Part shown: in pieces, positions 14,781 to 47,486 of the stretch
Layout of the letters: every line of letters starts with the position of its first letter
Position numbering within the stretch: position 1 is the stretch's first letter
From: Tolypeutes matacus
Lineage: Eukaryota; Chordata; Mammalia; Cingulata; Chlamyphoridae
Length of the DNA: 64,000 nucleotides
NCBI GenBank assembly: GCA_026826555.1
Contig: JAKSZT010053881.1
Location: forward strand, 12,205,092-12,269,091
Direction of reading: 5' to 3'
The notes under the pieces: model-generated
Told to the model about the DNA's origin: nothing
What the model saw: only the letters and a program-made list of their open reading frames with translations
Databases searched by the model: none
Translations under genes and position numbers: made by a program

Positions 14781-16030
14781 AGAAGGCAATGACCAAATTC
14801 ATTTGGAAGGGTAAGTGCACCAGAATAGCCAAAAACATTCTAAAAAAGAAGAGGGACATGGGAGGAATATCACTGCCTGATCTTGAAACATTACAAAGCT
14901 ACAGTGGTCAAAACAGCATGGTACTGGCATAAAGATAGACACATTGATCAGTGCAATAGAATCGAGAACCCAGAAATAAACCCTCACCTATACAGTCAAC
15001 TGGTTTTTGACAAACCTACCAAGTCTATGTTAACGGCACAAAAGTCTCTTCAACAAATGGTGTTGAGAGAACTGGATATCTATAACCAAAAGAATGAAAG
15101 AGGACTCCTATCTCACCCCCTATACAAGAATCAACTCAAAATGGATCAGAGATCTAAATATAAAAGCCAGGACCATAAAACTACTAGAAGAAAATGTAGG
15201 GAAACATCTTCAAGACCTTGTAGTAAGTGGTGGTTTCTTGGACCTTATACCCAAAGCACATGCAACAAAAGAAAAAATAGATAAATGGGACCTCCTCAAA
15301 ATTCAACATTTTTGCACCTCACAGGACTTTGTCAAAAGGGTGAAAAGGCAGCCAACTCAATGGGAAAAAATATTTGGAAATCACATATCCGATAAGGGTT
15401 TAATATCCAGAATATATAAAGAGATGTTACAACTCAACAGTAAAAAGACAAATGACCCAATTAAAAAATGGGCAAAAAACTTGAATAGACATTTGTCCAA
15501 AGAAGAAATGCAAATGGCAAAAAACACATGAAGAAATGCTCAATGTCACTAATGGTTGGAGAAATGCAAATCAAAACTACAATGAGATATCATTTCACAC
15601 CTATCAGAATGGCCACTATTAAAAAGAGAGGATGTGGAGAGATAGGAACACTTCTTCACTGTTGGTGGGAATGCAGAATGGTACAGCCACTATGGAGGAC
15701 TGTTTGGCAGTTCCTAAAGTAGTTGAATATAGACTTGCCATGTGACTCAGCAATACCACTACTAGGTATATACCCAGAAGAACTGAGAGCAGTGACACGA
15801 ACAGACATCTGCACACCGATGTTCATAACAACATTATTCACCATTGCCAAAAGGTGGAAACAACCCAGGTGTCCATCAACAGATGAATGGATAAACAAAC
15901 TGTGGTCTATTCACACGGTGGAATATTATGCAGCTATAAGAAGAAATGAAGTTGTAAAGCATATGGCAACATGGATGAACCTGGAGGACATTATGTTGAG
16001 CGAATACTGCATGATTGTGTTACTATGACC
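14781..16030 (+). pseudogene. L1 ORF2 C-terminal fragment
   Basis: Plus-strand L1 ORF2 3' third, broken into several frames (14,883-15,284; 15,094-15,531; 15,528-15,722; 15,723-16,028). Recognisable L1 words include [20 protein letters not shown], the Cys-rich C-terminal [11 protein letters not shown] and SIHTVEYYAAIRRNE. 5' truncated, without ORF1 or RT core. Confidence 0.85.
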
Positions 16031-19711: not shown

Positions 19712-19726
19712 AATAGTAGCCATTCT
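19712..19726. repeat. Target site duplication of the spliced ERV retrocopy (left)
   Basis: aatagtagccattct, repeated perfectly at 20,653-20,667. Joining the two flanks recreates uninterrupted L1 sequence. Confidence 0.95.
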
Positions 19727-20652
19727 TTTTTTTTTTTTTTTGGTTTCTTTCAATTCATTTGATACATGCTCAATGCCTTCTTTTGCAATTCTAAAAGATT
19801 TATAGAAACATTATGCTTATATCCAATCAAATGATTTTTCACTTCCTCCCAATCATGTTCACTATTATTATAAGCCAAAAGAATAATACAAATAGAACTT
19901 TCATTCCAATCACATTCAAGAGCTCTTAACAAGTTTAAATTATAAATTTGATTACCCAAATGTATAATAGTTGTTTCAAGATCATTCACATGATTATTCA
20001 GTTCCATATCAATGTGAGACTGGCTATGCCACATCTCACTTGCATTTTTATGCCAGTCCTTAACATATTATTGATTCTGGACTCCTTGATGCAGGGCTGT
20101 GCCAGTGACAGCTGCAGCGGTTATGATGCCAATCAGTCCCAAAATTCCTGCTATTAAAAGTCCAATCAGTCTTTTAGTTCTTTTTAAATAATGATCGAGG
20201 AAATGCCACAGCAACTGGGATTCTGGAGACTGCTGTCAATATCCGGTCATCTGAACTGGTAATCATAGTCCTTTTCTTCTTCTTGCTATAAAAAGAGTTT
20301 GATTTTCCTTAACCTAATACTTTACCTATAATTAATTCAATGAGAAACCACAATGTCTATAGTTTAAGTTTCGGTAGCATTTTCAATTCTAGGCTTGATT
20401 TTTCTAGAGCGGGTACACTGCTGTTTTCCTGTTTCTTTTCTGTTTCTTTTTCTTTTAAAACCGCTCTCAGGAGCTCCTTGGTCCGCACACTGACTGAAAG
20501 AAAAGTTTCATTTTCAGAGCCCCACGTTGGGCGCCATATGTTGCCCATCAGGAACTGGGTCTGTGAAAACGGTGCCACGGATGAGAAAGAATAAGACAAA
20601 GAAAGAAGAACTGGGATCAGGGGACTCTCTGTCCGGAATGGAGAGAAGAGCC
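19727..20652 (-). pseudogene. Processed retrocopy of a doubly spliced class II ERV env-region mRNA
   Basis: On the minus strand this locus begins at 20,652 with R/U5 sequence, runs through a Lys-tRNA primer site (20,519-20,536), then a leader. It is then joined to an env signal-peptide exon (20,434-20,308) and directly to a TM exon (20,307-19,742), ending in a poly(A) tail (T run 19,727-19,741). The 42,660-43,516 segment of the second provirus, which starts with gtaaga and ends with ttgcag, is missing exactly at 20,307/20,308. The gag-pro-pol region up to 42,532 is missing at 20,434/20,435, next to a tattacag acceptor. A 15-bp target duplication and A tail show that L1 machinery copied a spliced RNA. 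Stops are present in the env exon and the TM frame, so it is not expected to be active. I am confident of the spliced structure; whether the RNA encoded a Rec/Rem-like product is open. Confidence 0.93.
20519..20536 (-). promoter_or_regulatory. Lys-tRNA primer binding site in the retrocopy
   Basis: Minus-strand TGGCGCCCAACGTGGGGC, identical to the site of the provirus at 21,982-21,999. It lies just after the U5 end gggcaaca. Confidence 0.95.
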
Positions 20653-20667
20653 AATAGTAGCCATTCT

Positions 20668-21588
20668 AATGAGTGTGAAATAACCCATCTCATTGTGGCT
20701 TTGATTTGCATTTCCCTAATAGCTAATGAAGTTGAGCATCTTTTTCATGTGCTTTTTGGCCATTTATATATCTTCTTTGGAGAAATATCTATTCAAGTCT
20801 TCTGTCCATATTTTAATAGGGTTATTTGTCTTTTTATTGTTGAGTTGTAGGATTTCTGTACATAATCTGGATATTGAACTTTTATTGGATATGTAGTTTC
20901 AATTATTTTCTCCCACCATGCAGTTTGTATTTTTACTTTCATGATAAAGTCCTTTGATGAACAAAATTTTTAATTTTGATGAGGTCCCATTTATCTTTTT
21001 TTTCTTTTGTTGCTTATGCTTTGAATGTAAAGTCTAAGAAATCATTGCCTAAAACAAGGTACTAAAGATGTTTCCCTATGTTTTCCTCCTAGAAGGTTTA
21101 TACTTCTGGTTCTTATATTAAGTTCTTTGATCCATTTTGAGTTGATTTTAATATATGATGTAAGTTGGGGCCCACCTTCATTCTCTTGCATATGAACATC
21201 CAGTTTTCCCAGCACCATTTGTTGAGGAGACTATTATTATTTTTTATTAAGCAGTTTTATTGAGATATATTCACATACCATATGATCTATCCAAAGTGTA
21301 TAATCAATGGCTTTTAGTATAATCATAATGTTGTGCATCCATCACCACAAAAATTTTTAGAATCATTTCATTACTCCAAAAACAAAAACCCCACACTCCT
21401 TAGCAGTCACCTCTCAATCCCTCTATCTCCAGCCTTACATAACCACTAATCTAATTTCAACTTTATAAATTGATTTATATTTATATTTACATTTTATATA
21501 AATGGAATCATGCAATGTATAGTACTTTGTGTCTGGTTTCCTTAGCATAATTTTTTGTCTGGTAATAACAACTTGTAGTATTAACATT
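20668..21588 (-). mobile_element. Antisense L1 sequence, target of provirus 1
   Basis: Continues the L1 from 19,711 (tcattgtggctttgatttgc) to about 21,230. It is followed by another antisense L1 3' tail (tttattgagatatattcaca, catccatcaccacaaaaatt) that abuts the 5' LTR of provirus 1. Confidence 0.7.
21583..21588. repeat. 6-bp target duplication of provirus 1 (left)
   Basis: aacatt, repeated at 29,240-29,245. Six bases is the usual size for betaretrovirus-like integration. Confidence 0.9.
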
Positions 21589-21979
21589 TGTTGGAAAAGA
21601 TGCTGAGAGTCAGAGCATAAAGGGTTAAGCATTTAAAAAGCATGCTTGCTGGCAGAGAAACATTAGTAAATGTCTACAAGAACACTGCATACTGCAGACA
21701 TCAGTAGGAGGAGGCAGAGCAGAATGAACTCACCACTAAGATGGTATTGTCTGAATTCCTAAGAAAGATTGTCTAGGAACACAGAAACAGACAACGCTCT
21801 TACGTGCCAAGCTGAGGAACTAGCGAAGGATGCCCTACTTTTGTTATCAGCTTTGTAGTATAAAAAGCAGCTTCAGCCTAAATAAACTTGCCTGCATTCC
21901 ACATGGAGTGAGGTCCCCTGATCCCAATCTTTCTTTGGAACATTCCCGGCATCGTCTACCTCCACCTTGAATTACAACA
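21589..21979 (+). repeat. 5' LTR of provirus 1
   Basis: TGTTGGAAAAG to ATTACAACA, 391 bp. TATAAAA at 21,859-21,865 and AATAAA at 21,881-21,886 define the promoter and poly(A) signal. The U5 half shares ggtcccctgatccca with the LTR of provirus 2, but the U3 is unrelated. Confidence 0.95.
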
Positions 21980-21981
21980 GA

Positions 21982-21999
21982 TGGCGCCCAACGTGGGGC
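21982..21999 (+). promoter_or_regulatory. Lys-tRNA primer binding site
   Basis: TGGCGCCCAACGTGGGGC, two bases after the LTR. Defines this as an ERV-K (lysine) type element. Confidence 0.97.
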
Positions 22000-22124
22000 T
22001 CGACTAGTCTTTTCCCATCGTCTTTTTCTCTGGATCAGTGCCGTGGAAACAAGGACTGTTGTTGCTGGGTCGGACGGTCCTTGCATTCTATGTGGTGAGT
22101 CAAATAATCTTGATCGTCAGGGTA

Positions 22125-23850
22125 ATGGGTAATCAGTCGACTTGATTAGAGGAATATTCCAAAAATTTGAAGACCCTGTTAAAGAATACAGGGGTATCTG
22201 TGACGACCCACGAGTCACTAGAACTCTTTTCCCTTGTACAAAAACATTGTTATTGGTTTCAGCCGCAAGGGCGGAAAGTGTTAAATTTGAAACAATGAAA
22301 ACTAGTAATGAAATCATTGCAGCGAGCTTATCAAAAAGGGGAAACAGTTCCTCTTCAAGTAGGGTCTTTGTATAGTCTTATTTCTGTTGCTCTTGAACCA
22401 TTACAGTCAGATGAAAATAAAGATAATTAAAATGGATACTGCTATTGTTAAAACTGTAGCAGAACAAGCTAATGATGATTTTAATGTAAATATATATGAA
22501 AAAATTAATGAACAGGCAAAAACAGATAAACTCATGTCTAATAAAAAGGAAAAAAAGAAAAAGGGAGTTTATGGAACTTTTCCAGCGGTCGTTAAGCCGT
22601 CTGCTCCAAAAGATGATTTATTGTCTTTTGAACCAGCATCTGCGCCTCCTAAGGTATCTACTGATCCATTCTTTACAACATTTGATGACCCTCCAAAAGT
22701 TTCTGTTTTTGTGCCAGCACCATCCTCTTCAATTATGAAAAGTATAGCACAGGGAAATAGAGAAGGAAATTCAGAGGCTATGCAATATTTTTTTACTTTT
22801 CCATTAACAGTAACTCAAATTCCAGTAGATGCTAACAATCCCCAAGGGGGTGTACAATATGAGCATGCTTCTATTCCTTTTAAAACTATCAAAAAATTAA
22901 AACAAGCATGCACTCAATATGGCGTAAATTCTCCTTATACTCAAGAATTGGTGCAAGAAATGGCACAAGCAAACAGATTAATACCCTGGGACTGGGATTT
23001 GTTAGCTCAAGCTGTTCTTAATTCAGCAGAATTTTTACAATTTAAAACTTGGTGGGCTGATGAAGCTAATATTGTAGCACGACGAAATCAACAGCAAAAT
23101 CCACCAGTGCCTATTACTGCTGAACAAATATTAGGAACAGGTCAATGGGCTGGGATTTCTTGCCAAGCTCAATATGATGATATTGCCATTGTACAAGTGC
23201 GATTGTGCTGCCTAGCTGCCTGGCCATGAATCTCCACCCCTGGACAGGCTGTACAAACATTTTCAAAAATTGTTCAAGGAAATACTAAACCCTATGATGA
23301 ATTTGTAGTAAGGTTGGCAGATGTAGTCAACAAAACAGTAACTCAATCTGATCTTAAAGAAATGCTTATTCTAATGTTAGCTTTTGATAATGCTAACAGT
23401 GAGTGTAAAAAAGCTTTATGTCTGATAAAGGCAAATGGAAGTACTTTACAGGATTATATAAAAACATGCCAAAATATTGGGCCTAATACCTATAACATGA
23501 ACCTTCTTGCAGCTGCTCTAAAGGAACATAGTCCTAAGATTAATAATTTAAATTGCTTTAAATGTGGGAAACCAGGTCATATGAAAAAAGATTGCCAAGC
23601 CAAAACTAGTGTAAAAGCGCCATCTAACAGCAATAATAAATCAATACCAACTCGTATGTGTCCGAAATGCCAAAAAGGGTTACGCTGGGCCAAAGAATGC
23701 CATTCTAAGTATCATAAAAATGGTAGTCTTATTAATAAGTTGGAAAACTTCCAAGCGGGCCTTGCTCAAGGCCCTGAGACAAACAATATTAGCACATTTC
23801 CCAGCCTAGCTCAAATCTACCCAGTCAGCAATGGAGCAGTTCACTCTGGC
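22125..23850 (+). pseudogene. gag: Provirus 1 gag (matrix, capsid, nucleocapsid), broken
   Basis: Gag precursor of a betaretrovirus-like element. A start at 22,125 gives a myristoylation-type MGNQS beginning but meets TGA at 22,143. The frame changes near 22,385, then runs 22,387-23,229 and, after a TGA at 23,227 and further stops, 23,314-23,856. A capsid-type segment lies at about 22,760-23,190. The nucleocapsid has one intact CCHC knuckle (about 23,554-23,594) and a second at about 23,659-23,700 whose His position reads Arg. A proline-rich stretch (PSAPKDD) precedes the capsid. The end is split by a SINE at 23,865-23,964. Confidence 0.92.
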
Positions 23851-23864
23851 CTGTAACAGAACTT

Positions 23865-23964
23865 TTTTTTTTTTTTTTTTTTTACCGGGAGGTCCCAGGG
23901 ATCGAACCCGGGTCCCTCCATGTGGGAGATGGACGCCCAACCAGTTGAGCCACATCCGACCCCT
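23865..23964 (-). repeat. DAS-type SINE inserted at the gag/pro border
   Basis: T-run then ccgggaggtcccagggatcg and the reverse tRNA-like head. Flanked by a perfect 14-bp duplication, ctgtaacagaactt, at 23,851-23,864 and 23,965-23,978. Provirus 2 has the uninterrupted empty site near 39,330-39,345. Confidence 0.95.
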
Positions 23965-24093
23965 CTGTAACAGAACTTAAGGCAGTTACCAAAAGCAGTA
24001 CAGCTGTCGATCCTTCCTCAGCTGAAACTAAGTTTATTACTCCTTCACTGAGTATACCCAAAATAAGAACAAGAATTAAATGGCCTACCCCAG
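23965..24093 (+). pseudogene. pro: Provirus 1 dUTPase/pro stub
   Basis: About 130 bases collinear with provirus 2 (39,331-39,458), including aagtttattactccttcactg. Similarity stops abruptly after cctaccccag at 24,093, where the foreign segment begins. Confidence 0.85.
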
Positions 24094-26805
24094 AAATCTG
24101 AACTTCGAGCCTAAGTGTACTCCTAAAGAGTAGTAATCCAAAATATACATGTTAAATATCTGTATAAACTGCTAAATTAAAGCTTAACTGTATTTATGCT
24201 ATTTAAGTTGTCCTAGCTGGTTGCTAATTATGAACAAAAGTGTTTCAGAAAACAAGCTTATATATTACAGGTAACACAGATTCCAGAAAAAATCTTAAAA
24301 ACAGTAAAATCAAAGATGTGAAATGATGGAGGGCTTGAAGACAGCCATACCAAAGGAGTAAAAATTATGGGTAAAATTAGTAAGCTTTATGTTTCTGTTA
24401 GTGTGTCATAATTCTTTTTGTATTTGTCTGTTTGTTCAGTGTCAGTGTATATTTTAATACCTCCGGATGGTAATATTAAATTAATAAATGAAAATTATAA
24501 TAAGAGCTCTATTCAAATGGCCAAAAACTCTAAAAGCACTTATATTAGTAAATAAATATGGATATTAGTTTAAAATAATAAAAATAATTATACTCAAATT
24601 AAACCATTATTCTTACAAGTTTGTTTAATGTTGATGGTAATTATATGTTGTCAGAAGTTTGCTTGGAAATAGTTTCCAAAATCATTGTGGTAACAAGTAT
24701 GGAAGATCTATAAAAATGTTCTTTTATTATTAAAGAAAAAAAAGTAATTTTATCCTAAGATAAAATAACTAGTTATTAAAGCAAAGTAAAATGTGGGACA
24801 AAACCTGAATAAATATAAAAGTGCAAAAGGCTTGTAAAAAAAAGGAATTTTTGTGGTCAAAGCTAAGTAAAATTTAAGCAGTCTATCTATAAAAATTTAA
24901 AAGCTTTAATGTCAAACAATATAATAATATAAAGTTAAAGTTTTATTCTTTCTCAAAGTTTCTCAAGTTAGTAGTCTGTTTTATCAACATTGCTTCTTGA
25001 ACTTTAACCTTATCGTTTCCATGGAGAAACAGGTCTTATCACTTTTAAAAAGAACACAATGTTCGAACCTGCTTTCTCAAAGTCAAATCCTAAAAGATTG
25101 CTTTTATTTCAAACTGTCCCATATAAGATGGTCTTTTACCTAAAAAAAAGGTAAAATACTAAAAATAGTTAAGTTCATGTGATATAAGTTGAATGAAGTA
25201 TTTAAAACTGTTGTATGATTAAAAGAAATTTTCTAATTTTATAACAACTAAAGTTATATAAATAAAAGGTTCTTATGAATACTTTAAAGTGTATAAAATT
25301 CCTGAAAATTTAATAATGTTTCAATATAATAGTAAATAAAATATAATGTTATTAATCATAATTTTTAGTTATAGCTACAAAAAGAAAGCAGCCATTAAAG
25401 ACTGCCGGAGTAGTGTATAACAGTAAAATATAGTAAAATAAAATAACAGCCCTGCAACATGCAGTGGTCCCAAATATTGCTAGTTTGTTGCAAAAAATTA
25501 ATATCCAATTATGTCACTATCACTTTGTTTTAAAACTTGCTAAAGCTTTCTTTAATATTTTCTCAAACAAGTCAAGCCAGCCCACATTCCCCTTCCTGTA
25601 AAATAGCCAACAATAAATCAAGTTTATATTCAACACTGTCAGCAACAGCCCCAATTCTAATTATAATGTTAACAACAAAACCAATACAAGTATTAAAATT
25701 ACAAGTTAATGTATTACCCCACAGCCCAAATAGAAAATACTAATTTGTTTTTACCTATGCCTCAAACTATACAAAATAAAGAAATTGAGGTCATTCTAAT
25801 CATACTACTAAGAATCTTAAATGCTTAAAAAATAAAAGTTTATTCATTGGATGTCTGTTGTTGTATAATCTACTGTAGTTATGTATTATATATAATATAC
25901 TTAAATACTAATCAAAACTTCAGTACCATACATTGCATATATAAATAATTTAATAACTTGTATGTTACACATAAAAGTATTTTATTAAGTATATATATAA
26001 ATCTCTTGTTTTGAATTTGAACAGTCCTGAAACTGAATATATTTTTTAAAAACTCTGGCAAGTATTGTTCAAGCCTAAAAGTAAAACATCATACAGAAAA
26101 CTTTGTTAATCAACAAACCAATGCCTTGCTAGTTAACACTTTCACATTTCAGGAAAAATATTGGAAATTAAAATAATAAGCACATCAAGGATGTTTTGTA
26201 ACAAATTAAAAAAAAATAAAGTGCATTTCAACAGGTGTTGCATTCCTCCCTGGGGGAGCTGGCCACTCTCCCAGGAATTGATGCATAAACCTTAAAATGT
26301 ACTGTCCATGGAGTGTTGTGTTCCTTCCTAAGGAGGCTGGCCCCTTCCTCAGGAATTAGCAAAATACTCACAAGTTGGCATCTATAGTATCAAATTCATT
26401 AATCCTAAATACAGTCAACCCAAACTCTAGTATCAGTTGCTACTTCAACAATTCAACACTTCCTGGCTAAAAGCTAAATATCGGTAAGTATATATATATA
26501 TATATATGACTGCTCTATTTATCTGTCATTCTGTAACTTTGTTCAATATTAACTTATCTTTTAATTAGTTATATTATTTATGTTTCTCACCCTAATTGTC
26601 AGTATAAGCTTATCAAACTAAATATACATATCAACATTTATCTTGTATCTATCCAGAACTCTAGCCAAAAATAAGCCAAGTATATCAGTGTATCCCCTGA
26701 TTTAGTAAGCCTGTGAATGTATGTATACTTATCATAAAAAATTAACAGTTAAACCTCTATTTATAAATACTACAAAAACATAAAAGGGGGAAATAGTGAG
26801 GTGTG
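24094..26805 (+). other. Unidentified AT-rich segment replacing pol
   Basis: About 2.7 kb with no similarity that I can see to provirus 2 pol (39,459-42,350) or to any domain; stops in all frames, and the longest frame (25,537-25,743) has no motif. Composition is strongly AT. It contains (ta)n near 26,490-26,507, two related hairpin-like units at 26,235-26,365, and ends in aaaagggggaaat (26,784-26,796), which matches the polypurine tract of provirus 2. Similarity to provirus 2 returns near 26,815. It may be the 3' region of another retroelement, or captured host DNA. Confidence 0.8.
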
Positions 26806-27020
26806 AGAACAATTATATCAAGCATTATTTACAATAAATTTTTTAAGCCAAAGGGCAGAATCATATACATCAGCAGCAAAGCATTTCTGGCAAAAATCAG
26901 GCAAAAATACAGAAACAAATATTAGACAACTAGTTTATTGAAAGCATAAAAATAATAATCAATGGGAAAAGGCAGAAGTTAAGTTAGGATATAGGGTCGA
27001 GGTCTTGCTCTTATCATTAC

Positions 27021-27022
27021 AG
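27021..27022 (+). promoter_or_regulatory. env splice acceptor, provirus 1
   Basis: cttgctcttatcattacag, collinear with the acceptor in provirus 2 (42,531-42,532) that was used in the retrocopy. Confidence 0.75.
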
Positions 27023-27109
27023 ATAAAGGAGACCAGCTTTGGGTCCCGTCCAGATGTCTGAAACCTAGACATAAACAAGCCGAAGAAGCTAACACAAGAA
27101 GCAGAAAAG

Positions 27110-27337
27110 ATGGTAACTTCTAAAAGTCAGAATGTCACTCTAACACAGTTATTCTTTGCTATGCTTACCTTGACAACCACAGCAGTAAGTAGTGCACCTT
27201 CACATAATTATACATATTGGGCTTATATTACTAATTCACCTCTTTTAGAATTGTTCACTTGGGGGGACAAATCCTACCCATTTATATTAATTAGTCTTTT
27301 CATTTTCCTGGGTCTGTTGATTCTCGCCTTCCTCTAA
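27110..27337 (+). pseudogene. env: Provirus 1 env 5' part (signal peptide and SU start)
   Basis: A 75-codon frame with a hydrophobic signal-like segment (LFFAMLTLTTTAVSSA, residues about 12-27), an N-glycosylation site NYTYW and a second hydrophobic stretch at its end. It stops with TAA at 27,335-27,337. The following SU sequence (27,338-27,833) has stops and indels relative to provirus 2. An internal splice donor, gca|gtaagt, lies at 27,184/27,185, just after the signal segment and in phase 0. Confidence 0.85.
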
Positions 27338-27938
27338 AACATGAGGAGGAAGGGAAATTTATTGAAAATTTAGCCTTGCCTTTTCTTGAATGACCTATCT
27401 GCATAGAATCCATCGATCCATGTATACAGCCCCAAAATCATAGTACAAAGTGATAAATGGCATACATTCCATGTTTCATCTGAGGTTGTGCTCTTTAATA
27501 ATTCCTATAGAATTGTAAAGATTCGGACCCTTATAGGGATACCAAAACCTAATGTAAACACAGCCATAAATTGAAAAATTAATAATTCAACAAAAACAAC
27601 TAATGAAAGCTCTCGTTATTTTTGGAATTTTGGGAACATCATAAGTATAAATACATCACTAAATTGGACTCATCAGGGAAGATTTATCCCACAACTATGG
27701 GACACTAAACTTAACAAAACTAAAAATTATTTGTGGAAATTATTTTTGGGAACTAGCCCAATTTTTGGATGGCAAGGCAGTAAAACTAATATTACCAGTT
27801 TAAAAAGAAAATCCACTTAATTTCCTAAAGTATGTGTACGAGATTGTTTTTATAGTAGGAACAGTGAACATTAATCAAACATGGTTTTTCTGCAGCAATT
27901 GCTCCCTTTACACTTGTGTATCAGAATCTGTTTTACAG
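27185..27938 (+). other. Predicted internal env intron, provirus 1
   Basis: Donor GTAAGT at 27,185 and acceptor tctgttttacag ending 27,938. Both are at positions equivalent to the intron removed in the retrocopy (provirus 2: 42,660-43,516). Both exon ends are in phase 0. Confidence 0.7.
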
Positions 27939-28781
27939 GAGAGTTCTGCTGCAGTTCTAATGGGGCGATGGCGTCATGGAATATGGCTTCCGGTTCGCCT
28001 GAATCGCTGCTGGCAGTCTTCCCCTGAGAGCCAAATCCTTTGGCACTTTCTAAATCATTATTTGAAAAGAACCAAATGTTTGATTAGATTAATTATAGCT
28101 GCTGTATTAGGGCTTATAGGTATTATTACAGCTGCTGCTGTGGCAGAAACTACCCTACATGAGAATGTACAAACACAACAATATGTTAGAAATTGGCATC
28201 ATAATGCCAGTGAGCTATGGCATAGTCAAGCATATATAGATGAGCAAATTAATAATAGGCTTAATGACTTAGAGATGGCTGTTACACAAATGGGAGATCA
28301 GGTATATAATCTAAATTTAAAACAAGGTTTGAAGTGTGATTGGAATGAAAGTGCTTTTTGTATCACTTCTCTCCCATACAATGACTCCCATTGTGAATGG
28401 GAAAAAATTCAAAATCATTTAATAGGTCATCACACAAATTTATCTATAGAAATTACAGATTTGCAAAAGAAGATTTTGAGCATATCTCAGAATCAACTTA
28501 CTACGCTTCCAGGTAGCGAATTTTGGCAATCAGTGACAGATCAATTGAATAAAATAAACCCCTTACATTGGTGGAAATTGACCTCTGTATTTGCTAACTT
28601 CGGTATGGTGATCATTGGTGCTCTGCTACTCTTAACTGTATTAGGAGGCATTCGCAAAGCCCTGCTGTCCTGCATTAATAGGGCTGAAAAGGGCAGCCAT
28701 GCCAATAATTTGATTCTGCTTAAAACCCTTAACTCTCAAACCCCTGTCCATGGAGCTTGGCTGGTGGCCAGTGACAGGTAA
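27834..28781 (+). CDS. env: Provirus 1 env TM region, open frame
   Basis: A 315-codon frame covering the SU C-terminus and transmembrane subunit of a class II Env. Visible parts: the former SU/TM cleavage site read as KRTKC (the last basic residue is lost; provirus 2 keeps RRTKR), a hydrophobic fusion-peptide-like segment at residues 84-104, a polar heptad-like region, a CDWNESAFC disulfide-loop motif (168-176), several N-X-S/T sites, and a membrane span at about 253-271 followed by a basic cytoplasmic tail. The first 35 codons precede the predicted splice acceptor. The open length contrasts with the broken gag and SU. As a full Env it cannot be made, because SU is interrupted. Whether the frame is translated from a spliced RNA is not known. 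Confidence 0.85.
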   Translation: MYEIVFIVGTVNINQTWFFCSNCSLYTCVSESVLQESSAAVLMGRWRHGIWLPVRLNRCWQSSPESQILWHFLNHYLKRTKCLIRLIIAAVLGLIGIITAAAVAETTLHENVQTQQYVRNWHHNASELWHSQAYIDEQINNRLNDLEMAVTQMGDQVYNLNLKQGLKCDWNESAFCITSLPYNDSHCEWEKIQNHLIGHHTNLSIEITDLQKKILSISQNQLTTLPGSEFWQSVTDQLNKINPLHWWKLTSVFANFGMVIIGALLLLTVLGGIRKALLSCINRAEKGSHANNLILLKTLNSQTPVHGAWLVASDR

Positions 28782-28834
28782 GACCTTCAGAGGAGGGCAA
28801 CCTAAGACAGGCACAATCACCCTGGACAAAAAAC

Positions 28835-28847
28835 AAAAAAGGGAGAA
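28835..28847 (+). promoter_or_regulatory. Polypurine tract, provirus 1
   Basis: aaaaaagggagaa immediately before the 3' LTR; plus-strand DNA primer site. Confidence 0.9.
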
Positions 28848-28848
28848 T

Positions 28849-29239
28849 TGTTGGAAAAGATGCTGAGAGTCAGAGCATAAAGGGTTAAGCATTTAAAAAG
28901 CATGCTTGCTGGCAGAGAAACATTAGTAAATGTCTCCAAGAACACTGCATACTGCAGACATCAGTAGGAGGAGGCAAGGCAGAATGAACTCACCACTAAG
29001 ATGGTATTGTCTGAATTCCTAAGAAAGATTGTCTAGGAACACAGAAACAGACAACGCTCTTACGTGCCAAGCTGAGGAACTAGCGAAGGACGCCCTACTT
29101 TTGTTATCAGCTTTGTAGTATAAAAAGCAGCTTCAGCCTAAATAAACTTGTCTGCATTCCACATGGAGTGAGGTCCCCTGATCCCAATCTTTCTTTGGAT
29201 CATTCCCGGCATCGTCTACCTCCACGTTGAATTACAACA
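28849..29239 (+). repeat. 3' LTR of provirus 1
   Basis: 391 bp, same ends and length as the 5' LTR, with about seven substitutions. Followed by the duplicated target aacatt at 29,240-29,245. Confidence 0.95.
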
Positions 29240-36100: not shown

Positions 36101-36950
36101 GTTTCATGAACTTCACAGCCAAAGCACGAGCAGCAAGAGAAAAAATTGATAAATGGGATCTCATCAAAATTAAAAACTTCTGCACCTCAAAGGATGTTAT
36201 TAAGAAAATAAAAAGGCAGCCTACCCAATGGGAAAAAATATTTAGCAACCATATATCTGATAGGAGCCTAATATCCTGCATATATAAAGAAACCCTACAC
36301 CTTGACAATAAAAGGACAAAGAACCCATTTAAAAAAGGGGCAAGTGACCTGAAAAGACACTTCTCCAAGGAAGAAATATAAATGGCTAAAAAGCACATGA
36401 AAAAATGCTCAACATCGCTTGCTATCAGGGAAATGCAAATCAAAACTACAATGAGATACCATCTTACACCCATCAGAATGGCAGCTATTAAAAAAATAGG
36501 AGACCCTAAATGTTGGAGAGGATGTGGAGGAATAGGAACCCTCATCCACTGCTGGTGGGACTGCGGTATGTTCTAGCCACTGTGGAGGACAGTTTGGCGG
36601 TTCCTCAGAAAACTAATAATAGATCTTCTGTATGATCCAGCAATTCCATTGCTGGGTATATACCCAGAAGAACTGAAAGCAAAGATATATGCACACCAAT
36701 GTTCATAGCGGCATTGTTCACCATTGCCAAAAGTTGGAATCAGCCCCGGTGCCCATCAACAGATGAATGGATAAGCAAAATGTGGTACATACATACAATG
36801 GAATATTACTCAGCTGTAAGAAGGAATAAAGTGCTAACACATGGAATAATGTGGATGAATCTTGAAGACTTATGTTGAGTGAAGCAAGCCAAGCACTGAA
36901 GGATGAACAGCATATGACCTCACTGATCTGAACTGAGGAAAGTGAGCAGT
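33127..36950 (+). pseudogene. L1 ORF2 (endonuclease-reverse transcriptase), broken
   Basis: The endonuclease domain is whole (33,127-34,530): [22 protein letters not shown] and SDHNG motifs are all present. A TAG at 34,531 interrupts the linker. RT continues in frame at 34,639-35,127 ([16 protein letters not shown]), then a small deletion near 35,107 shifts the frame. The catalytic FADDMILYI lies at about 35,222-35,248 in the shifted frame and is followed by TAA. Further stops and shifts lie at about 35,687, 36,091 and 36,379. The Cys-rich C-terminus is at about 36,520-36,580. The expected full length of about 1,275 codons fits the span. Inactive. Confidence 0.92.
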
Positions 36951-41739: not shown

Positions 41740-42420
41740 CTGGCCCTATGGCTTCACAAAATGATTTAGTAGATAAACTTATTGCTCATACAGAATCTGC
41801 TGCTGATTATCATAAACTTACACATACTAATGCTTCTGGCTTACATCATAAATATCCCCACTTAACAGTAAAAGAAAGTAAGAGGATTGTTAGACAATGT
41901 CCTACTTGTGGACCCATAAATGCCCCTACTTTCTCTCCAGGAACTAATCCCCGTGGAGAACATCCTAATGAAATTTGGCAGATGGATGTTACACATGTGC
42001 CCTCTTTTGGCCGCCTTCAGTATGTGCATGTGACAGTGGACACATATTCTAATTTTATTTAGGCAACTTCTCAAACTGGTGAAAAGGCCTCACATGTACG
42101 TTCTCATTTATTACGTTGTTTTGCTGTAATGGGCCTGCCAGTACAGCTAAAAACTGATAATGGGCCTGCCTATCTTAGTCAATCTTTCAAAAAATTTGCA
42201 GTAACTGGAATATTAAACATGTTACAGGAATTCCATAAAACCCCCAAGGACAAGCGATAGTAGAAAAAAGTATTAAAATTAATGTTGCAAAAACAAAAGG
42301 GGAGATGGAGGAGAATCTGCTAAAGACAAACTATCTAGGGCATTGCTTGCCTTAAATTTTCTTAATAGACAACAAATTTCTAATGCCACAGCAGCAGAAA
42401 GACATTGGGAGGTTAAAAAA
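41740..42420 (+). pseudogene. pol: Provirus 2 integrase
   Basis: The N-terminal zinc-binding HHCC region ends in CPTC (about 41,899). The core Asp lies in WQMDVTH (about 41,970) and the second Asp in KTDNGPAY (about 42,150); a Glu follows near 42,262 after a frameshift. TAG at 42,060 and at least one indel break it. Confidence 0.85.
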
Positions 42421-42530
42421 AGGAATGAAAATGAAAAATGTGGACAACCAATATATTAGAAAAATGAAGCAACCAATAAATGGGAAAAAGGAGAGGTAAA
42501 ATTTTGGAGCCGAGGTTTTGCTCTTATTAC

Positions 42531-42532
42531 AG
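42531..42532 (+). promoter_or_regulatory. env splice acceptor, provirus 2
   Basis: gttttgctcttattacag. The retrocopy joins leader sequence to the exon that starts here at 42,533, so use is evidenced by the cDNA copy. Confidence 0.85.
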
Positions 42533-43516
42533 AGGCAGGAGAGGAGCAGTGGATCCCCTCCAGAAGAATCAAGCCTAGAGTTGAAGATGCTGCCAAGACT
42601 TAAACTATGGACATGGTTGTTTTACATTGGATTAATTATAGGTAAAGTATTAGGTCAAGGTAAGATACCACATCATAATTACACTTATTGGGCATACATA
42701 ACCAAGCCACCTCTTCTAGAGATTTTAACTTGGAGCGATGAGTCTTACCCAATTTATCTTAATCAATCTCACCATTTTCCAGGACCTATAAATATATGAC
42801 TACCCTTAAAGCCAAAAGAAGGAGGGAAACTTATAGAAAATTTAACTTTACTTTTTATAGACTGCCTTATTTGTGTTGGATATGGTTCTGTATGCATGCA
42901 ACCTGGGAATCGCAGTATAGTTTTAACAGAGAAAAATCAAACTCAAATTTATGTTCTCATTTTCCCTTCTTTGCCATATAAACCAGAAAATATGGTAAAT
43001 CTTACATGTCCCTCTCATAACAGACTACTTAATGACAAATGGCATATATGTCATGGGCTTACAGAGGTTGTGTTGTTTAATGATTCCTATGGAATTGTAA
43101 AGGATTGGGCCCTTATAGGGATACTGAAACCTATTAAAAACACAACCATATTTTGGTTCATTAATAATTCAACCATAATCACAAATGACAGTAATCCTTA
43201 TTTCTGGAATTTTGGTAATACAGCATTTACTAACAGCTCAATAATTTGGAAAAATCAAGGAAGATATATCCCACAACCATGGGACACTAAACTTAACAAA
43301 CATTGAAGTTATTTGTGGAAATTATTTTTGGGAACTGGTCCAATTTTTAAATGGCAAAGCAGCAAAACTAATATTACTATTTTAAAAAGAAAATCAACTC
43401 AATTTCTTACAGTATGTGTATGAAATCCTATAGTTTTATCATTGGAAAAGTAACTTTTGGTGAAAGGAACACTAATTGCACCTTATTTTACATGTCTTAA
43501 GAATTCATACTTGCAG
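42533..43516 (+). pseudogene. env: Provirus 2 env: signal peptide and SU
   Basis: The signal-peptide region starts at the Met codon near 42,587 (MLPRLKLWTWLFYIG, hydrophobic core). SU pieces at 42,680-42,799 and 42,896-43,306 carry many N-glycosylation sites but are broken by TGA at 42,797 and TGA at 43,304. The internal donor aag|gtaaga is at 42,659/42,660. Confidence 0.85.
42660..43516 (+). other. Internal env intron, provirus 2 (removed in retrocopy)
   Basis: 857 bp from gtaagatacc to catacttgcag. The locus at 20,307/20,308 lacks exactly this interval. Canonical GT-AG ends. Confidence 0.9.
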
Positions 43517-44276
43517 GAAAATCAAACTTTTTAGAGCAAGAAGAAGAAAAGGACTATGGTTGCCGGTTTGGATGACCAGACATTGGCAGCAGTCTCCAGA
43601 ATCCCAGTTGCTGTGGCATTTCCTCAACCATTATTTAAGAAGAACTAAAAGATTGGCTGGACTTTTAATAGCAGGAATTTTGGGACTGATTGGCATCATG
43701 ACTGCTGCAGCTATCACTGGCACAGCCCTGCATCAAGGAGTCCAGAATCAACAATATGTTAAGGACTGGCATAAAAATGCAAGTGAGATGTGGCATAGCC
43801 AGTCTCACATTGATATGGAACTGAATAATCATATGAATGATCTTGAAACAGCTATTATACATTTGGGTAATCAAAGTTATAATTTAAACTAGTTAAGAGC
43901 TCTTAAATGTAATTGGAATGAAAGTTTTTTTTGTATTACTCCTTTGGCTTATAATAATAGTGAACATGATTGGGAGGAAGTGAAAAATCATTTGATTGGA
44001 TATAAGCATAATGTTTCTATAGATATTTTAGAATTGCAAAAGAAGGCATTGAGCATGTATCAAAATGAATTGAAAGAAACCACTGGTGCAGCCGTTTCAC
44101 TGGTGGAAACAAAAAACAGTTCAAATATCATTTTGGATTGGATTAGGAATTATTGTTATATGCATTTCAGTTGTTTGTATTGTCAAGGGTAGAATAATAA
44201 AATATATTCATAGAAAAAATGAAGAATTAGACCAGATAAATGCATTTATGTTAAGAAACTTGGCCATGAAAAACTA
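43517..44276 (+). pseudogene. env: Provirus 2 env TM
   Basis: An Arg-rich ARRRKG segment, the RRTKR furin-type site, a fusion-peptide-like hydrophobic run (GILGLIGIMTAAA) and a polar region, to TAG at 43,890-43,892. Then 43,944-44,192 and, after a frameshift, the membrane span (IIVICISVVCIV) and basic tail in 44,086-44,277. It corresponds to the open TM frame of provirus 1 and to the last exon of the retrocopy, which ends at the equivalent of about 44,082. Confidence 0.88.
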
Positions 44277-44576
44277 ATTTTGCATTATTTAGTAGAAAGA
44301 TTCTACTAATAACCCCTTAATCTTAATACTAATTACCTGCACAAAAAATATCCATTTAAGGAACCTGAAGAAGCATAAATATTAATGAAATTGCCTTCCA
44401 TGTAAGAGCTCAAAAGCTTGACTGGTAGTCAATGACGGGTAAGATTCTCAGAGGAGAACAACCTAAGAGGCACAGTCACAAGAGCCTATGGAAGAAGACA
44501 AGCGTGACAGGAGGTCACCTTGTATCAGCTTATATAATGGTTCCTATGATAGTCACTGAAAAAAAATTTAACTAAT

Positions 44577-44590
44577 AAAAAAGGGGGAAA
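44577..44590 (+). promoter_or_regulatory. Polypurine tract, provirus 2
   Basis: aaaaaagggggaaa directly before the 3' LTR. Confidence 0.9.
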
Positions 44591-44988
44591 TGATGGTGTT
44601 TCAATTAAAGGCCATGATTACTGACAGAAAGCAGGTCACCTTGGAATATAATAAACAAGCTCTCCAGTCTCATGCTCTAGGAGCTGGGTGGGGAAACATC
44701 CTGAGACAATGCCTGTAAATTGCAGAAATGTAGAAGAGCTGAGTCATTGACCTTTAAGACTAGTTTATTTCAGCTCATGTGTAACTGTTATCTATTACCC
44801 CTGCATATGCACACATGTATTTTTGATTGGTCAAAAACCAAATAAAAGCCACGCTCTATGAGGTGGCTGGGCTCTTCTCTCCATATCAGATGGAGAGTCC
44901 CCTGATCCCAGTTTTTCTTCTCTTTGTCTTATTCTTTCTTTCTCATCCGCAGCACCATTTTCACGAACCCAGTTCCTGAACTCCAATA
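44591..44988 (+). repeat. 3' LTR of provirus 2
   Basis: 398 bp from TGATGGTGTTTC to CTCCAATA (the terminal CA looks mutated to TA). AATAAAAG at 44,841 sits 29 bases before 44,870, the base that matches the 5' end of the spliced retrocopy, so it acts as a TATA-type element. U5 shares gtcccctgatcccag with the LTR of provirus 1. Confidence 0.92.
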
Positions 44989-44994
44989 GCATTT

Positions 44995-47486
44995 CCCTAA
45001 TTGCTAGTGATGTTGAACACTTTTTTCATGTGTTTTTTCACCATTTATATTTCTTCCTTGGACAAATGTCTATTCAAGTCTTTCATCCATTTTTTAATTG
45101 GGTCACTTATTATTGTTGAGTTATAGCATCTCTTTATATATTCTGGGTATTAAACCCTTATCAGATATGTGATTTCCAAATATTTTCTCCCATTAAGTCA
45201 GCTGCCTTTTCACCCTTTTGACAAAGTCTTTTGAGGGACAAAAGTGTTTAATTTTGAGGAGGTCTCATTTATCTATTTTTTCTTTTGTTGCACGTGCTTT
45301 GGGTGTAAGGTCCGAGAAACCACCGCCTATCACAAGATCTTGAAGATGTTTCCCTATATTTTCTTCTAGTAGTTTTATGGTCCTGGCTTTTATATTTAGG
45401 TCTTTGATCCATTTTAAGTTGATTCTTGTATAGGGATTGAGATATGTGTCCTCTTTCATTCCTTTGTTGTTGGATATCCAGTTCTCCCAGCACCATTTGT
45501 TGAAGAGACTGTTTTGTCCCAGTAATGTGGACTTGGTAAGTTTGTCAAAAACCAGTTTGCCATAGAGGTGAGGATTTATTTCTCGACTCTCAATTCTATT
45601 CCACTGATTGATGTGTCTATTTTCATGCCAATAAATGCTGTTTTTTAAAAGTATACTTTTTTTATTAGAGAAGTTGACAACTTATACAACAGTCATGCAC
45701 ATGTGTGGAATTCCCACACAACACCCAATATGAAGCTGTTTTGACCACTGTAGCTTTGTAGTATGTTTCAAGTATGTGAAAGTTGTCCCACATCACTCTT
45801 CTTCTTTTTTTTAGATGCTAAAACCACTGGGCTACACCTGTTCCCCTTCACTCTTCTTTTTAAGAATGCTTTTGTATGTAACATTTATGTAATCTAAAGC
45901 TTCTTTAAAAAGAAAAATAACAAAATTAATTTTAAAAAAGGATGCTTTTGATTATTCTGGTGCACTTTCCTTTCCAAATAAATTTGGCAATTGCCTTTTC
46001 TATTTCTGTAAAGTAGTCTGTTGGAATTTTGATTGGTATTGCACTGAATCTATAAATTAGTTTGGATAGGATTGACATCTTCACAATATTTAGTCTTCCA
46101 ATCCATGAACACAGAATTATTTCCATTTGTTTAGGTCTTCTTTGATTTCTTTTAGCATTATTTTGTAGTTTACTGAATCTAGGTCCTGTACTTCTTTGGT
46201 TAATTGACTCCTAATTTGATTCTCTTTGTTGCTATTGTAAACGGAATCTTTTCCTGATTTCTTCCTCAGGTTATTCAATACTAGTGTACAGAAACATTAG
46301 TGATTTTTTCTTGTTAATCTTGTATTCTGTCACTTTGCTGAACTCATTTATTAGCTCAAGTAGCTTTGTCGTGGACATTTCAGAATTTTCTAAATATAGG
46401 ATCATATCATTTGAGAATAGTGAGAGGTTTACTTCCTCTTTTCCTATTTGGATGCCTTTTACTTTTTCTTCTTTTTTTCTTGTCTAATTACTTTAGCTGG
46501 AACTTCTAGCACAATGTTGAATAACAGTGGTGACCATGGGCATCCTTGTCTTATTCCTGATCTTAGAGGGAAAGCTTTCAACCTTTCCCCATTATGATGT
46601 TGGCTGTGGATTTTTCATATATGTCCTTTATCATATTGAGGATTGTTCCTTATATTCCTATCTTTTGAAGTGCTTTTATCAAGAAAGGATGCTGGATTTT
46701 GTCAAATGCATTTTCTGCATCAATTGAGATGATCATGTGATTTTTTTCTTCAATTTGTTAATGTGGTATATTACATTAATTGGTTTTCATATGCTGAACC
46801 ACTGTTGCATACCAGGAATAAATCCCACGTGGTCATGGTGTATAATTCTTTTGATATGGTGTTGGATTCTATTTACAAGTATTTTGTTGAGAATTTTTGC
46901 ATCTATGTTCTTTAGAGAGCTTGGTCTGTAATTTTCTTTTAGTATCTTTATCTGACTTTGGTATTAGGGTGATGTTGGCTTCATAAAATGTGCTGGGTGA
47001 TTTTTCCCTCCTCTTCAATTTATTGGAAGAGTTTAAACAGGACTGGTGTTAATTCTTCTCAAAATGCATGGTAGAATTCTTCCGTGAAGCCATCTGTCCT
47101 GGACTTTTCTTTGTTGGGAGATTTTTTTTTTTAAGATGTTACCAGGGATTGAACCCAGGACCTCATACACAGGAAGGAGGCACTCAATCACTGACTTCAC
47201 ATCTGCTCCCTGGGAGATTTTTAATGACTGATTCAATCTCTTAAATGTAATTGGTTTGTTAAATTCTTGTATTTCTTGTAGAATCAATGTAGGTTGCTTG
47301 TGTTTCTAGGAATTTTTCTAGTTAATCTAGGTCAGGTGTTCTTAATGAAGAGACTATTATTTCCCAATTGAGTAGACTTGGCACCCTTGTCAAAAATCAG
47401 TTGATCATAAGGGTAAGGATTGATTTCTAAATTCTCGATGCTATTCCATGGTTGTATATATCTGCTCCTGTATCAGTACCATGCTA
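44995..47486 (-). mobile_element. Antisense L1 ORF2 sequence, right flank of provirus 2
   Basis: Continues the L1 from 30,063 (ccctaattgctagtgatgttg) through the ORF2 C-terminus and back into the RT region (tttggtattagggtgatgttgg near 46,960). A second antisense L1 piece starts at about 47,337. Interruptions: an AT-rich insert at about 45,640-45,730, a possible SINE scrap at 45,810-45,850, and a SINE at 47,127-47,210. Confidence 0.8.
47127..47210 (-). repeat. DAS-type SINE in antisense L1
   Basis: Reverse head accagggattgaacccaggac. Flanked by tgggagattttt at 47,115-47,126 and 47,211-47,222. Confidence 0.85.

Follow-up and report, generated by a model that had tools for sequence, protein, structure and literature searches.

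The window, i.e. the whole stretch of 64,000 nt of Tolypeutes matacus DNA that was analysed, carries proviruses 1 and 2 and, on the minus strand at 19727-20652, a short retroviral element. This element consists of an R-U5-primer-binding site (PBS)-leader segment, a 127-nt 5' exon of env, a TM exon and an A15 tail. Its three joined stretches, namely, a leader part of 218 nt, an env start of 127 nt, and the end of SU plus TM of 566 nt, lie apart in the unspliced endogenous retrovirus (ERV). The earlier note on this DNA had described R/U5, primer site, leader, env signal-peptide exon and TM exon as joined in this order, and each of these parts was found by alignment. Re-inspection of the poly(A) tail and 15-bp duplication that it had reported revealed A15 and a 15-nt target-site duplication (TSD), AGAATGGCTACTATT, on both flanks with 15/15 nt alike. 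The features of the element are the following:

20653..20667, minus strand: 5' TSD, AGAATGGCTACTATT in sense
20613..20652, minus strand: R, starting at the cap nucleotide (GGCTCT) common to other full-length copies
20435..20652, minus strand: exon 1, R-U5-PBS-leader, ending at leader donor SD1 (proviral AAACAGAAAAG/GTAAGC)
20519..20536, minus strand: PBS, by match to provirus 1
20308..20434, minus strand: exon 2, the env signal-peptide exon, 127 nt
19742..20307, minus strand: exon 3, the last part of SU followed by TM, starting at acceptor A2a and stopping at the premature 3' end
19754..19759, minus strand: AATGAA, 18 nt upstream of the tail, a candidate signal for premature polyadenylation
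19727..19741, minus strand: A15 tail
19712..19726, minus strand: 3' TSD

The R/U5 part shares 85% identity with the 3' long terminal repeat (LTR) of provirus 2 (44870-44979), exon 2 is 84% identical to provirus 2 (42536-42663 aligned) and exon 3 94% (43515-44082), whereas a 27-nt stretch at the primer site, presumably of the tRNA-Lys type, matches provirus 1 in 26/27 positions. The nearest relative of exon 3 among 27 sampled intron-bearing copies is L003, at 97.4%. Judged by these identities, provirus 2 is a relative of the window copy and not its source. Pfam matches above the cutoff were RVT_1, Integrase_Zn and rve; GP41 scored above the cutoff in provirus 1 and below it in the provirus 2 piece. 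With reverse transcriptase and integrase domains, a GP41-type TM and a Lys-type PBS, the family is one that we take to be a class II, betaretrovirus-like ERV.

According to the earlier note, the two junctions of the window copy coincide with splice signals of provirus 2, and all of these were located there: the first acceptor SA1 (ATTACAG/42533), the donor GTAAGA at 42660 and the second acceptor CTTGCAG/43517. The corresponding features of provirus 2 are these:

42533..42659, plus strand: equivalent of exon 2, with the AG of SA1 at 42531-42532
42642..42647, plus strand: alternative donor D2b, GTAAAG
42660..42665, plus strand: donor D2a, GTAAGA
42660..43516, plus strand: env-internal intron (intron 2), 857 nt in provirus 2
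43500..43501, plus strand: AG of acceptor A2c, whose exon would begin at 43502
43515..43516, plus strand: AG of acceptor A2a (CTTGCAG, window isoform), exon beginning at 43517
43535..43536, plus strand: AG of acceptor A2b, which keeps the Env frame, exon would begin at 43537
43517..44082, plus strand: equivalent of window exon 3
43638-43652, plus strand: RRTKR cleavage-type site
44870..44909, plus strand: R of the 3' LTR, its limits set by the 5' starts and poly(A) ends of the copies

From acceptor A2a to the SU/TM cleavage-type site the distance is about 45 codons, and a purine-rich GAAGAAGAA tract, which may act as an exon enhancer, follows the acceptor cluster before TM. The GTAAG of D2a and the GCAG of A2a are kept in 27/27 intron-bearing copies examined, which comprise 26 of the 38 other genomic exon-3 matches plus provirus 2 (C3331, apparently a second contig of C3447, was left out); their intron measures 594-620 nt in 14/27 copies and 825-866 nt otherwise. 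A pattern spanning the D2a exon-intron boundary, with up to 3 mismatches, occurs at 944 sites in the 3.63-Gb assembly, some of them singly spliced copies such as L035 and L038, and its control at none. The leader donor SD1 was taken from other loci and reads AAACAGAAAAG/GTAAGC in 15/19 leaders; the four others are two with an altered donor, one with a repeated leader, and L016, which runs into L1-like sequence. At L016 (C4970:1467248-1467381, minus strand), ERV U5-leader up to SD1 is followed by sequence resembling the L1 5'UTR and ORF1, and the locus may represent an L1 RNA carrying a leader exon of ERV origin. No Rfam family matched the provirus 2 region 42400-45000. The 3' LTR of provirus 2 is devoid of the last U5 bases and adjoins L1 sequence (window 44980 onward).

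Provirus 1 (21588-29239) has LTRs that are 98.2% alike over 392 nt. By eye, it possesses a similar donor (27185, GTAAGT) and an acceptor with an exon from 27939, in matching phase. A genome search with the joined provirus 1 junction gave 0 matches, a weak result.

Insertion and 3' end of the window copy

The host sequence at the insertion is itself L1, which made an empty-site comparison possible within the window: the flanks, joined with one copy of the duplication, align across the insertion point to two other L1 copies, 15310-15913 and 36187-36795, with 72.5% identity and 8-10 gaps in each case. L1 endonuclease has the consensus TTTT/AA, and the presumed nick on the opposite strand, read by eye as 5'-TTCT/AATG, is one base off it. 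The window copy thus unites what marks a processed retrocopy, namely, a target duplication, an A tail, introns gone at splice signals and an L1-endonuclease-type site. The A15 stands where provirus 2 and 6/7 other loci (L002-L008) continue.

The window copy stops inside TM, at the equivalent of 44082, and its poly(A) is therefore not at the LTR site. Its RNA may have been cleaved early, within TM, after the AATGAA signal 18 nt upstream. L004, however, carries an internal A-run close to this end point, so that internal priming on an A-rich source RNA is also possible. Early ends are likewise found in L053 and L059, each shortly after an AATAAA; the end of L044 falls within U3, and that of L051 a short way downstream of the LTR AATAAA. 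Palmarini reportedly described spliced and prematurely polyadenylated RNAs of JSRV in 2002. Normal 3' ends lie 37-41 nt into R (L035-L037, L039-L042, L046 and L050). In provirus 2 (44841-44909), about 60 nt separate AATAAA from the poly(A) site where R ends, and the RNA of this segment is predicted to fold into hairpins that could bring the two together.

Spliced copies across the assembly

In the whole assembly, 19 loci were found from which the env-internal intron is gone at donor and acceptor sites, in addition to one locus, L060, in which the leader is spliced straight to A2a. The pattern for junction 1 (leader to env exon) had 25 matches, as compared to 1 for the reversed-pattern control. 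Nineteen of the 25 are cDNAs in which the leader is joined to the env exon: 12 without intron 2, 6 that keep it (L035, L038, L040, L045, L047 and L051, with an internal gap in L047 and L051) and 1 joined to foreign sequence. The matches set aside were L052, for its unclear 5' part, the unspliced L054, L055 and L058 with an altered SA1, and L056 and L057, which are chance matches. The junction-2 patterns matched 3 times for D2a+A2a, 7 times for D2a+A2b, 5 times for D2b+A2b and once for D2a+A2c, with 0 matches for the controls. The leader-to-A2a pattern matched 5 times (control 1), exactly in L060 and with 2 mismatches in the other four. The 19 loci without intron 2 represent six combinations of two donors and three acceptors, and the frame-keeping acceptor A2b is used in 12/19:

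D2a+A2a: L036, L043 (the window copy), L059, L013
D2a+A2b: L037, L039, L044, L053, L102, L103, L104
D2b+A2b: L042, L050, L105, L106, L107
D2a+A2c: L048
D2b+A2c: L041 (one locus)
D2b+A2a: L046 (one locus)

Other genomic copies with the junctions of the window copy, which the earlier note had suggested looking for, exist as L002/L036 and L059, and L013 shares the second junction. L002/L036 (C951) has both junctions at a different site, where 10 bp of target are duplicated, and its 3' part comprises U3 and 40 nt of R before the tail. Of the cDNAs joining leader and env exon, 16/19 end in a tail and are flanked by a duplication of L1 type, several of these being imperfect or read by eye: L039, L042 and L048 have TSDs with a mismatch or indel, and the TSDs of L035 and L050 are rich in A. 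L051 has no TSD. The ends of L040, L041, L059 and L060 were read by eye, and their tails are short or interrupted. As for the 5' starts of the 19 cDNAs, nine are at the same R nucleotide (GGCTCT), L042 is one base off and five are 5'-truncated; L047 starts in an assembly gap, L044 and L046 inside U3 upstream of the usual cap site, and L045 with a whole LTR. L046 is devoid of most of TM. For L102-L107, 601 bases each were read, and the sequence upstream of L103 and L104 is unusual. By eye, R/U5 is inverted in L105, as twin priming would give, a mechanism by which L1 yields inverted 5' parts.

Three loci point to a different route. Betaretrovirus integrases duplicate 6 bp of target, and L045 has complete LTRs and a 6-bp duplication, GATTTA, as expected of retroviral integrase. 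L013 and L106 keep pol upstream of a gap that corresponds to the window interval and ends at splice sites, and therefore look like proviruses of RNA spliced only at intron 2. The L013 copy continues past R into U5 without a tail; the stretch upstream of it (L014) gave no LTR or gag match, so that no 5' LTR was found for this locus.

Two further loci are chimeric L1 insertions with a TSD. In L049 (C4980:4077086), a spliced ERV 5' part is joined at D2a to about 1.6 kb of unrelated sequence, and in L048 (C4814:4442770) TM is joined to coding-like sequence that ends in AATAAA and a tail; no PDB relative of this coding-like part was found at E<=1.

At a probability of about 0.93, the window element is in our view a processed cDNA that L1 inserted by target-primed reverse transcription, its template being a doubly spliced env mRNA from a large family of betaretrovirus-like ERVs. 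The leader-to-env intron and the second intron are absent from the element, it starts at the cap site, and it has an A tail, a target duplication and an empty site; splicing is inferred from such DNA copies, which would be its traces. An L1-made cDNA of this kind had been proposed in the earlier note, and the junctions, tail, TSD and empty site bear this out, as do L002/L036 and L059 with the same donor and acceptor. It is very improbable that the interval was instead lost from a provirus at the DNA level and that a leader-spliced transcript of that provirus was then copied by L1. The pol-bearing L013 and L106 lack exactly this interval, which is what a deletion would leave. However, the best reading of these two is that they are proviruses derived from spliced RNA, and six combinations of donor and acceptor are seen among the gaps, every one with GT/AG signals. 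The TM tree also speaks against a deletion: the window copy (L043) groups with L007, a young unspliced copy (support 96/72), and L013 lies across a 97/93 branch. In this tree of 46 rows, the 13 rows without intron 2 (L060 and L013 included) do not form one group with respect to the 6 cDNAs that keep it; six changes are needed, at least four of them forced on well-supported branches, and label shuffles gave no clustering (the count excludes the 27 unspliced rows, and L046 and L102-L107 are outside the tree). Proviruses with the same gap and no splice signals at its ends would have spoken against the earlier note, and the gaps of L013 and L106 end at splice sites.

There is hardly any probability that reverse transcriptase formed the junction by switching templates at a short direct repeat. 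The window copy shows the customary AG/G ambiguity at its junction, and the sequence TTATAG terminates D2b as well as A2b (ATTATAGGTAAA in 27/27 copies, TTATAGCAAG in 25/27), so that the five D2b+A2b loci could be jumps at a 6-nt repeat and alone would not prove splicing. Yet the letters shared in the D2a+A2a form are only those of any splice site, and the same endpoints recur in different insertions, which carry different TSDs. In the reading as a processed cDNA, env mRNAs would have undergone further splicing to a cluster of loosely defined acceptors a little upstream of TM, and the exported, capped and polyadenylated products would have become L1 templates like other mRNAs.

Reading frames and possible products

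The env ATG is located 55 nt into exon 2 and begins a stretch of 24 codons (MLPRLKLW...) before D2a, a frame that is open in 20/27 copies. Both donors are in phase 1, leaving one base; A2a and A2c leave the Env frame, whereas A2b restores it. The A2b exon begins downstream of a T-run in which variation between 5 and 6 T shifts the frame of full Env: a script counted 5 T in 12/27 copies and the frame-shifting 6 T in 12/27, and L083 has 7 T. A stop follows 176-178 codons after A2b in 8/27 copies. Two young natural copies have open A2b frames, L053 of 202 and L050 of 196 aa, and are closest to L083 (98.9 and 99.1%). The frame of L048 is open for 167 aa and that of L013 for 177 aa, but the latter has lost its ATG. 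In 14/19 loci without intron 2, frames from the env ATG are at most 47 aa long (L106 is not among the scored loci). Many young copies (L003-L008, L082-L101) show Env damage, namely, the T-run frameshift, the 594-620-nt intron within SU in 14/27 and the nearly common TM stop in 8/27, as if amplified without Env, and with Env damaged in the amplified family, a product may not have mattered for amplification.

Upstream of the env ATG, the Env frame of 16 cDNA loci checked is open to the element start in 8 and has a stop 25-56 codons up in 8. Over the 216 nt upstream of SD1 in 17 unspliced leaders (L017-L033), it is stop-free in 14, as compared to 0 and 1 for the other two frames, and contains no Met in 16/17. 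The chance of a 72-codon open frame is, by our arithmetic, about 3% for even base use, and since the leader copies share ancestry, the open frame counts as about one event. The upstream frame encodes a lysine/glutamate-rich stretch and, by eye, no arginine-rich motif. As it is open without an AUG, a non-AUG start with a longer lysine/glutamate-rich N-terminus would be possible.

The earlier note implied that the doubly spliced RNA serves for an RNA export factor of the Rec, Rem or Rev type, and we regard a Rec/Rem/Rej-type product as unlikely. The donor lies at the end of the signal-peptide exon, a position that Rec and Rem share, the first residues of exon 3 form a basic stretch (ARRRK in the Env frame or SKKKK in the other), and the upstream Env frame is stop-free, lysine/glutamate-rich, in 14/17 leaders. 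That frame, however, lacks an AUG in 16/17 leaders, and a large part of the amplified family has a broken Env. Counted from the first AUG, about 24 codons make up the signal peptide, which shows no arginine-rich motif by eye. Its open reading frame (42518-42799) matched no family at E<=1 in Pfam, which we take to contain a Rec model, and the window isoform departs from the Env frame. The evidence therefore does not support a Rec-like export factor.

Most likely, the spliced RNAs are alternative env mRNAs, of which the main coding form, A2b, encodes Env without most of SU. In this form, the signal peptide continues in frame into the end of SU and into TM, and an SU-less Env may have been its product. 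The A2a form of the window, a signal peptide with an off-frame tail, is best interpreted as a by-product of loose choice among acceptors, not as an RNA export factor, and it probably yielded nothing useful. That the A2b RNA gave a real accessory protein, i.e. an SU-less, Rem-CT-like Env kept readable where the T-run, skipped by the splice, frameshifts full Env, and perhaps extended N-terminally into the leader by a non-AUG start to give a long, lysine-rich signal peptide, is rather doubtful.

Relation to known retroviral systems

L1 copies of doubly spliced ERV mRNA are already known from HERV-K rec. The HML-2 rec mRNA retrocopies ERVK-30 (2q32.1) and ERVK-31 (5q15) were likewise made by L1 from a doubly spliced mRNA of a betaretrovirus-like ERV and show a TSD, poly(A) and precise intron boundaries, and the available text of PMC4351823 describes two loci with one junction set, in contrast to about 20 loci, several isoforms and acceptors upstream of TM here. 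New here are the multi-isoform record and the TM-proximal acceptors. The earlier note had set a TM exon apart from the Rec layout. This is correct for Rec, whose second coding exon is near the C-terminus of Env and in another frame, whereas the acceptor described here precedes the SU/TM site by about 45 codons; Rec and this family have in common only the change of frame, which A2a and A2c bring about. MMTV Rem and JSRV, however, also have env-internal second splices. Rem joins a signal peptide in the Env frame to the C-terminal part of Env, as do the A2b isoforms (12/19 loci) and unlike the out-of-frame window isoform; its signal peptide has 98 aa with a nuclear localization signal (NLS) and arginine-rich motif, as far as the text of PMC13120120 goes, as compared to about 24 codons from the AUG without such a motif here. 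JSRV uses alternative env-internal donors and acceptors, and its Rej has NLS-type, arginine-rich and export motifs; the accessible part of PMC3185594 mentions no retrocopies.

Another example of L1 activity at the scale of a family is that of the HERV-W processed pseudogenes, which start at R-U5, end at U3-R and carry poly(A) and 5-15-nt TSDs. In the available text of PMC5537654, HERV-W is termed the sole HERV group specifically so mobilised, and spliced forms, as found in the present family, are not mentioned. Packaging of spliced retroviral RNA has been described for MLV SDARE (PMC10496198) and HIV-1 (PMC1868081), where, according to the portions available, spliced RNA is taken up or copied by the virus, as we infer for L045, L013 and L106; those are infections, whereas the armadillo loci are germline fossils. 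A search of titles and beginnings of abstracts, mostly outside subscription journals, returned nothing on spliced copies of this ERV family.

In this context, processed-mRNA insertions provide a splicing map of a retrovirus family without an RNA sample, including the cap site, the end of R, two introns, alternative sites and premature polyadenylation. Double splicing inside env, known in MMTV, JSRV and HML-2, would according to them also have occurred in a family with a short AUG-started signal peptide, and the origin of Rec/Rem-type layouts becomes testable, as splicing may precede the export function. Furthermore, two routes of spliced RNA into the germline are suggested, namely, L1 and retroviral integrase, the latter by L045 and, by inference, L013 and L106. 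Should the A2b accessory protein be real, the genome would hold a fossil cDNA library of it.
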